Of a DNA stretch of 64,000 nucleotides, positions 46,031 to 47,490 are shown in pieces (positions within the stretch are counted from its first letter, which is position 1; each line of letters opens with the position of its first letter). The stretch lies in the NCBI GenBank assembly GCA_030055515.1, contig JASFYI010000001.1:558001-622000 (forward strand), read 5' to 3'. Below the pieces are notes generated by a model. That model made no database searches. It saw nothing but the letters and a program-made list of their open reading frames with translations, and was not told the origin of the DNA. Made by a program: the position numbers and the translations under genes. The stretch comes from Methanolinea sp. Lineage in GTDB: Archaea; Halobacteriota; Methanomicrobia; Methanomicrobiales; Methanospirillaceae.

Positions 46031-46040
46031 TTTATATATT
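46031..46040 (+). promoter_or_regulatory. TATA box of cdrS-ftsZ operon
   Basis: TTTATATATT within an A+T-rich stretch. The transcript is expected to start near 46060, just before the phased repeat array. Confidence 0.6.
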
Positions 46041-46068
46041 ATTTGATACAAGTAGGATTCATCTGCAT

Positions 46069-46134
46069 AGTCAGACATAAGAATGCTAAATGACAGACAA
46101 ATGTCTGACAAATGTCAGACAATTGTCATACTAG
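46069..46134 (+). promoter_or_regulatory. 11-bp-phased operator array before cdrS
   Basis: Units matching TGTCAGACA recur exactly every 11 bases: 46069 (AGTCAGACA), a degenerate position 46080, 46091 (TGACAGACA), 46102 (TGTCTGACA), 46113 (TGTCAGACA) and 46124 (TGTCATACT). Units 46102 and 46113 are perfect inverse complements separated by AA. The last unit abuts the GGTGA Shine-Dalgarno (46134-46138). One site per helical turn is what a ribbon-helix-helix repressor array would need. Confidence 0.7.
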
Positions 46135-46143
46135 GTGAAATCA

Positions 46144-46320
46144 ATGAAACGGATCACCCTCAGGTTGCCGGACCAGCAGATCGAGATGCTCGAGAAGATG
46201 GTGGCGATTGGGGAGTTTCCCACCGTCTCCGAGGCAGTGCGGGCTGCGGTACGCCAGCTGATCGAACAGCGAGGCGGGCGTGTGCTCCAGGAGAGTGACC
46301 AGGTTTCACTCAAGGTTTAA
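46144..46320 (+). CDS. cdrS: Ribbon-helix-helix regulator, CdrS-like
   Basis: This 58-residue ribbon-helix-helix protein has the DNA-contacting strand [11 protein letters not shown] and helix region [23 protein letters not shown]. Its placement 12 bases before ftsZ matches CdrS, the archaeal cell-division regulator known from haloarchaea. ATG 46144 has a GGTGA Shine-Dalgarno; an upstream ATG at 46135 lacks one. It probably autoregulates through the adjacent repeat array. Confidence 0.88.
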
Positions 46321-46332
46321 GGAGGGTCAAAA

Positions 46333-47490
46333 ATGCAGAGTATCATCAACGAAGCCCTGAAAAATGCTGAAATCGAAAAGGAAATGGCAAAATCCTCGAA
46401 TTCAGCGGACGACGATTTCATAGGGCAACCCCGGATCGTGATCATCGGCTGCGGTGGCGCCGGGAACAACACCATCAACAGGCTGCACCACATGGGTGTT
46501 TCGGGCGCTGAAACGATTGCAATCAACACCGACAAGCAACACCTCGACATGATCCAGGCCGACAAGCGGGTCCTCATCGGGAAATCGCTGACGAAGGGAC
46601 TCGGCGCGGGAGGCTACCCCGAGATCGGGAAGAGAGCCGCCGAGATGGCAAGGCCCACGCTCGAGGCCCTCCTCGAGAATGCCGACCTCTGCTTCATCAC
46701 CGCGGGGATGGGGGGCGGGACGGGGACCGGTTCCGCGCCGGTTGTCGCCCAGATCGCGAAGGAACAGGGTGCGATCGTGGTGGGAATGGTCAGCTACCCG
46801 TTCCAGGTCGAGAAAGCACGTCTCATCCGCGCCGAGGAGGGTCTCGAGGCGCTCGCGGCTGCCGCCGACTCGGTCATCGTCCTCGACAACAACAGGCTCA
46901 AAAATTTTGTGCCAAACCTCCCTCTCGGGCAGGCGTTCTCGGTGATGGACCAGCTCATCGGCGAGACGGTGAAGGGGATCAGCGAGACGATCACCCAGCC
47001 GTCGTTGATCAACATTGATTACGCCGATGTCAGGGCAATCATGAGCAAGGGAGGTGTCGCGGTGATGCTGGTCGGGGAGAGCAAGCAGCAGAACAAGGCA
47101 GAGAGCGTTGTCCGCGAGTGCCTGAGCAATCCCATGCTCGACATCGACTACCGCGGCGCCACGGGCAGCCTGATCCACATCACGGGCGGCGGGGATCTCA
47201 CGCTCCAGGATGCCGAGGAGATCGCCACGTCCCTCACCTACGAGCTCGATCCCCACGCGGACGTCATATGGGGTGCCCGCGTGAGGAACGACATGGAAGG
47301 CAAGGTGAGGGTACTGGCCATCATGACGGGTGTCCAGACGGGAAAGATCATGGGGAGCAGGGTCTCCTACAAGACAATCCTTGAGGACCTCGAGCAGAAG
47401 AAGGGGAACCCCAAGGCACCCCAGCTCCCGAAGAACAGGAAGGCACGCGACCAGGCGGCAGGAGGTACATTGCTCGAGTGGGTAGGATAG
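46333..47490 (+). CDS. ftsZ: Cell division GTPase FtsZ
   Basis: This 385-residue tubulin homologue forms the division ring. The GTP-binding GGGTGTG lies at residues 127-133 and the catalytic T7 loop NIDYAD at 227-232. The N-terminal extension (about 30 residues) and C-terminal tail ([19 protein letters not shown], short) fit archaeal FtsZ. A GGAGGG Shine-Dalgarno lies nine bases upstream. It is co-transcribed with cdrS and followed by a hairpin terminator. Confidence 0.97.

Follow-up and report, generated by a model that had tools for sequence, protein, structure and literature searches.

Neighbouring ribbon-helix-helix (RHH) dimers occupy tandem sites in Arc and MetJ, much as proposed below for a promoter of methanogen cell division, although both systems are bacterial or phage, Arc involving only two dimers and MetJ boxes of 8 bp. 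Arc dimers are spaced by about one helical turn. The groove geometry of Arc has been described (PMC3325190). Omega/ParB of plasmid pSM19035 places RHH dimers on 7–10 contiguous repeats overlapping promoters, that of its own gene included (PMC9499535), but these are 7-bp non-palindromic repeats serving plasmid partition, and the comparison implies no sequence relation. Among archaeal viral RHH proteins, AvtR and SvtR act as autorepressors and have been proposed to spread into degenerate sites by oligomerising along the DNA, and F55 binds two tandem 11-letter repeats; all three are viral, and a conserved lattice of multiple palindromic sites at 11-bp spacing in a cell-division operon is not described there (PMC5569661). 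Oligomerisation of RHH proteins on tandem sites, combined with autoregulation, is already known (PMC5569661, PMC9499535). In the CdrS regulon of Haloferax volcanii (PMC8406309), a homologous small RHH protein is encoded directly upstream of ftsZ2, as at the locus analysed here, and 11-bp box pairs, as inferred from sequence, stand at the published positions of the ftsZ1, dacZ and threonine ammonia-lyase orthologues. In that regulon the pairs stand singly, upstream of TATA and at genes other than cdrS, whereas here five to six boxes (up to nine slots elsewhere) lie downstream of TATA at cdrS itself. In Halobacterium salinarum, an RHH regulator, CdrL, acts at the cdrS-ftsZ2 promoter, as is proposed here, but CdrL is found in Halobacteria only (PMC7439475), and in haloarchaea the cdrS leader contains a GTAAGAC pair instead of a TGTCWGACA array. 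The literature searched yielded no account of a CdrS site in organisms other than haloarchaea, and a search with the box sequence gave nothing relevant.

The window, i.e., the whole 64,000-nucleotide stretch of Methanolinea sp. DNA analysed here, contains five 9-bp palindromic boxes (TGTCWGACA) set in strict 11-bp register, with one of six slots empty (46069–46132); they lie downstream of the TATA box and ahead of the Shine-Dalgarno sequence of cdrS-ftsZ2 (Table 1). This agrees with a preliminary description of the locus, which had reported a phased array, with the same six slots and letters, at this place ahead of an RHH gene directly preceding ftsZ. The linkers between the slots read, in order, TA, AA, AA, AA and AT, and the box at 46113 is the exact reverse complement of that at 46102, the two being the perfect inverse pair already pointed out. 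The best six-slot 11-bp chain in the window scores 45/54, as compared to a top score of 32 in 100 Markov-shuffled windows and a maximum of 34 in 20,000 local shuffles (none of which reached 45); other spacings (8–10 and 12–15 bp) give chain scores of at most 30 in the window. Chance repeats as the origin of the array are ruled out by these shuffle scores. The sites and their register stand as first described, but their designation as half-sites does not: the unit TGTC-W-GACA is itself palindromic and is, therefore, best read as a whole palindrome, the putative full site of one dimer.

Table 1. Features of the cdrS-ftsZ2 promoter region and operon (positions within the window).
Feature	Position	Strand	Evidence
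TATA box of cdrS-ftsZ2, TTTATATA	46031..46038	+	letters read; relatives also have a TATA-like sequence ahead of the array
Box 1, AGTCAGACA	46069..46077	none	8/9 match
Slot 2, AGAATGCTA, empty	46080..46088	none	4/9 match
Box 3, TGACAGACA	46091..46099	none	8/9 match
Box 4, TGTCTGACA, 5' arm of putative covarying RNA stem	46102..46110	none	9/9 match; covariation with box 5
Box 5, TGTCAGACA, 3' arm of putative covarying RNA stem	46113..46121	none	9/9 match; covariation with box 4, RNA fold
Box 6, TGTCATACT	46124..46132	none	7/9 match; directly abuts the Shine-Dalgarno sequence
Shine-Dalgarno sequence of cdrS, AGGTGA	46133..46138	+	letters read
cdrS, 58-aa RHH protein, presumed array binder	46144..46320	+	Pfam RHH_1, E 1.3e-7
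ftsZ2, tubulin-like cell-division gene	46333..47490	+	ORF; FtsZ_C (PF12327) match in own genome

Given a transcription start site (TSS) near 46061, as predicted from the TATA box, the array is probably located in the transcribed leader of cdrS-ftsZ2. The conserved start of cdrS is the ATG at 46144, whereas the mechanically called 61-aa ORF begins with a GTG at 46135, and the gene lies directly upstream of ftsZ2 (stop 46320, ftsZ2 ATG 46333). Its product consists of a single small RHH domain (Pfam RHH_1, 31.8 bits with a cut-off of 20.5), an assignment supported by additional NikR/ParD matches, and its residues R3, T5 and R7 are invariant among 16 diverse homologues. The NCBIfam CdrS model NF058555 is a haloarchaeal equivalog whose curated cut-off of 100 is missed by the window protein (65 bits), which is, therefore, termed here a CdrS homologue and not a member of NF058555.

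Absence of the repeats from close relatives had been named at the outset as grounds for abandoning the proposal; instead, conservation of the array extends over the order and to families outside it, and a repeat private to one genome is ruled out by the arrays in relatives. CdrS is present in 146/150 genomes of the order and in 245/393 of the phylum. From 187 cdrS upstream regions gathered, 71 were non-redundant, and 68 remained after leaving out three haloarchaea; at least two in-phase boxes are present in 67 of these 68 leaders, which average 2.84 boxes each vs. 0.07 in Markov sequence, with 191/211 good-box pairs spaced 11, 22, 33, 44, 55 or 66 bp apart. The phase is maintained across degenerate slots, the linkers are A/T-rich, and the centre base of the box is A in 57% and T in 38% (PWM). 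The dominant plan within the order has six slots, of which 1, 3, 4, 5 and 6 are filled and 2 almost never is: among 49 six-slot leaders, slot 1 is filled (at least 7/9) in 40, slot 6 in 45, and slot 3 in all 49, the latter being required by the leader selection. Slot 2 (46080–46088 in the window) is a box in only one of these leaders and empty in 48, despite the lattice phase being kept across it.

Named array-bearing members of the order include Methanolinea, Methanoregula, Methanoculleus, Methanofollis, Methanocalculus and Methanospirillum; beyond the order, arrays are found in families f7, f8, f19, f28, f30, f36 and f37, some with just two or three boxes. The longest arrays have nine slots (in one leader, L108, seven of the nine slots are filled at a match of at least 7/9), and distant CdrS homologues (f9, f31) show two or three boxes by eye, with one step of 10 bp in f9. 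In some lineages the first box begins 12–25 bp downstream of the first base of the TATA match, and the array there is, therefore, predicted to lie partly upstream of the TSS; like the palindromic form of each box and its A or T centre, this speaks for action at the DNA level. Elsewhere in methanogen genomes, box pairs are scarce, and most of them are not shared between genomes. A second pair, common to the genus of the window (L148–L150), lies between a DUF2070 gene and the gene for a protein starting with MRQAPVSV that has no Pfam match, and a further pair is located approximately 140–155 bp upstream of the gene for a conserved 106-aa protein, MGGEIYQAQ... (L152, L157, L158).

The array depends on the presence of cdrS: among 12 leaders of FtsZ2 genes read in genomes without detected CdrS, none has an array, and one has a weak pair approximately 250 bp upstream. 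This result is only supportive because cdrS itself is missing there; FtsZ2 genes without cdrS have a wholly different leader, and the co-occurrence of array and cdrS is, therefore, partly trivial. One genome without CdrS (G166) has two FtsZ2 copies, neither with an array, and in a 98% complete genome of the order (G002) we found no CdrS or FtsZ2 orthologue, only an FtsZ1-like match.

The same box pair is found at CdrS targets in haloarchaea. Upstream of ftsZ1, two boxes of at least 7/9 stand exactly 11 bp apart in 7/12 haloarchaeal genomes, and in the remaining 5/12 a weaker partner at 11 bp is recognisable by eye. With up to one mismatch allowed, eight haloarchaeal genomes contain 46 instances of the pattern GTCWGAC-N4-GTCWGAC vs. 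5 of the reversed control, and these pairs include the ones at ftsZ1, dacZ (NF041371 equivalog) and threonine ammonia-lyase (TIGR01127 equivalog). The predicted pair centres at these three genes, −52, −49 and −96 (with the TSS set 27 bp downstream of the centre of a TATA box chosen by eye, and with dacZ and threonine ammonia-lyase taken from one haloarchaeal genome), match the H. volcanii CdrS ChIP-seq sites at −50, −47 and −95 (PMC8406309 Table 1). CdrS is, therefore, the likely binder of the array, as had been suggested initially, and from these targets and positions we infer that it binds GTCWGAC pairs. In the genome of the window itself, ftsZ1 has no box of at least 7/9 within 300 bp upstream and was, therefore, rejected as a second target. 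Other haloarchaeal pairs are located upstream of cdrL (G246, G393), of an orc1/cdc6 gene and of DUF7139-like genes in two genomes (one checked). In three haloarchaea (L339, L346, L369; one checked by Pfam), bactofilin-like genes are preceded by a CdrS-like pair at a distance of approximately 240 bp. A GTCWGAC-type pair directly upstream of the cdrL TATA box (L358, L372, L188) suggests mutual control of cdrS and cdrL.

Overall, we consider it likely that CdrS itself uses the array as its operator for cooperative autoregulation, probably repression, with one dimer per turn. Direct autoregulation is not simply transferable from the haloarchaeal literature, since the haloarchaeal cdrS promoter is without the array motif and is absent from the H. 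volcanii CdrS ChIP-seq list (PMC8406309); in place of the TGTCWGACA array, haloarchaeal cdrS leaders (L187–L196) carry GTAAGACNNNNGTCTTAC, a GTAAGAC/GTCTTAC pair with 11-bp spacing. It is conceivable, albeit unlikely, that cdrS-ftsZ2 is controlled through the array by another protein, namely another RHH regulator such as CdrL in haloarchaea. Indeed, binding to the cdrS-ftsZ2 promoter in Hbt. salinarum, the only one bound by CdrL, has been shown for CdrL and not for CdrS (PMC7439475). The GTAAGACNNNNGTCTTAC pattern (with at most one mismatch) is present in 10/12 haloarchaeal genomes and its exact copy only at cdrS, with no second site, in 9/12, in agreement with the single site of CdrL; in haloarchaea, CdrL would read the GTAAGAC pair at cdrS and CdrS the pair at cdrL. 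What speaks against another binder in methanogens is the restriction of CdrL to Halobacteria, the identity of the array's box pair with that at CdrS targets, and, as far as RHH binders are concerned, the presence of only two RHH_1 proteins in the genome of the window, CdrS and a NikR-like one. The NikR operator, GTATGA-N16-TCATAC, bears no resemblance to the TGTCWGACA array.

We regard as quite improbable that the array works mainly as RNA, with leader stem-loops (boxes 4 and 5 above all) governing the translation or stability of cdrS-ftsZ2, although several observations agree with such a role. Mirror positions of boxes 4 and 5 show compensatory covariation, with 8/8 pairs altered on both sides, 45 double-change cells vs. 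22.1 ± 3.3 in shuffled data (reached in 0/500 shuffles) and a covariation of 0.275 vs. 0.137 shuffled; shuffling within families, with four to five rows of unassigned family put in f1, gives P 0.0002. These statistics are shuffles without tree correction, the control box pairs sharing the same phylogeny. In leader L071 boxes 4 and 5 are lost (3/9 each), yet a perfect inverted repeat is kept; together with L045 and L020, it illustrates the stem-like covariation at 46102–46121. The cdrS leader folds better than shuffles, by a z-score that is inflated by the palindromes themselves, and post-transcriptional control of cdrS-ftsZ2 has been suggested in Hbt. salinarum (PMC8303175). A known structured RNA family was rejected, as Rfam 15 gave only two leader matches, both far below the gathering score. 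On the other hand, boxes 3/4 and 5/6, of identical geometry, show no covariation, the single boxes are palindromic, which pairing between boxes does not need, and the isolated pairs at haloarchaeal targets lie upstream of TATA and hence act as DNA. The covariation of boxes 4 and 5 itself speaks for an RNA stem, a preference for a DNA dyad being a possible alternative source. Within the reading as a CdrS operator, this conserved stem probably adds a second, post-transcriptional function. The suggestion that the last site blocks translation initiation found no support; the candidate stem is formed by boxes 4 and 5, approximately 12 nt upstream of the Shine-Dalgarno sequence. Activation of cdrS-ftsZ2 by array-bound CdrS (positive feedback) appears highly improbable: a possible activating role of CdrS at ftsZ1 and HVO_1885s has been described for H. 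volcanii (PMC8406309), but those sites are upstream of TATA, whereas the methanogen array lies between TATA and the Shine-Dalgarno sequence, the usual place of an archaeal repressor.

Repression by CdrS is favoured because the array is downstream of TATA, a position argued to be repressive for archaeal factors (PMC8406309), and the presence of several sites in constant register at the promoter of the presumed regulator matches the layout of an RHH autoregulatory tandem operator. In the proposed mechanism, one CdrS dimer would bind each palindrome via paired beta-strands (R3-x-T5-x-R7), and dimers 11 bp (approximately one helical turn) apart would share one face of the DNA and touch each other. 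Through these contacts degenerate slots would be filled too, yielding a short filament over the initiator and leader of cdrS-ftsZ2, so that abundant CdrS would stop the loading or escape of RNA polymerase and keep CdrS and FtsZ2 at a set level. The exact 11-bp lattice drifts from 10.5 bp per turn over six sites, which counts against this reading of the array. More tentatively, a CdrS filament on DNA and a stem-loop of boxes 4 and 5 in the transcript might possibly form a dual device for two-tier (transcriptional and post-transcriptional) homeostasis of the division operon. This arrangement would date back to an ancestor of much of the phylum, and haloarchaea would have rewired it into a loop of two regulators (a CdrS site at cdrL and a GTAAGAC pair, presumably for CdrL, at cdrS).

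How the level of FtsZ is set in archaea is largely open, and the phased array provides a base-level prediction of CdrS recognition that ties the published haloarchaeal ChIP sites to methanogens. It also suggests a way in which the circuit was rewired upon the emergence of CdrL, and represents a deeply conserved example of RHH sites arranged along DNA at one per turn, where the same bases apparently also specify an RNA stem.
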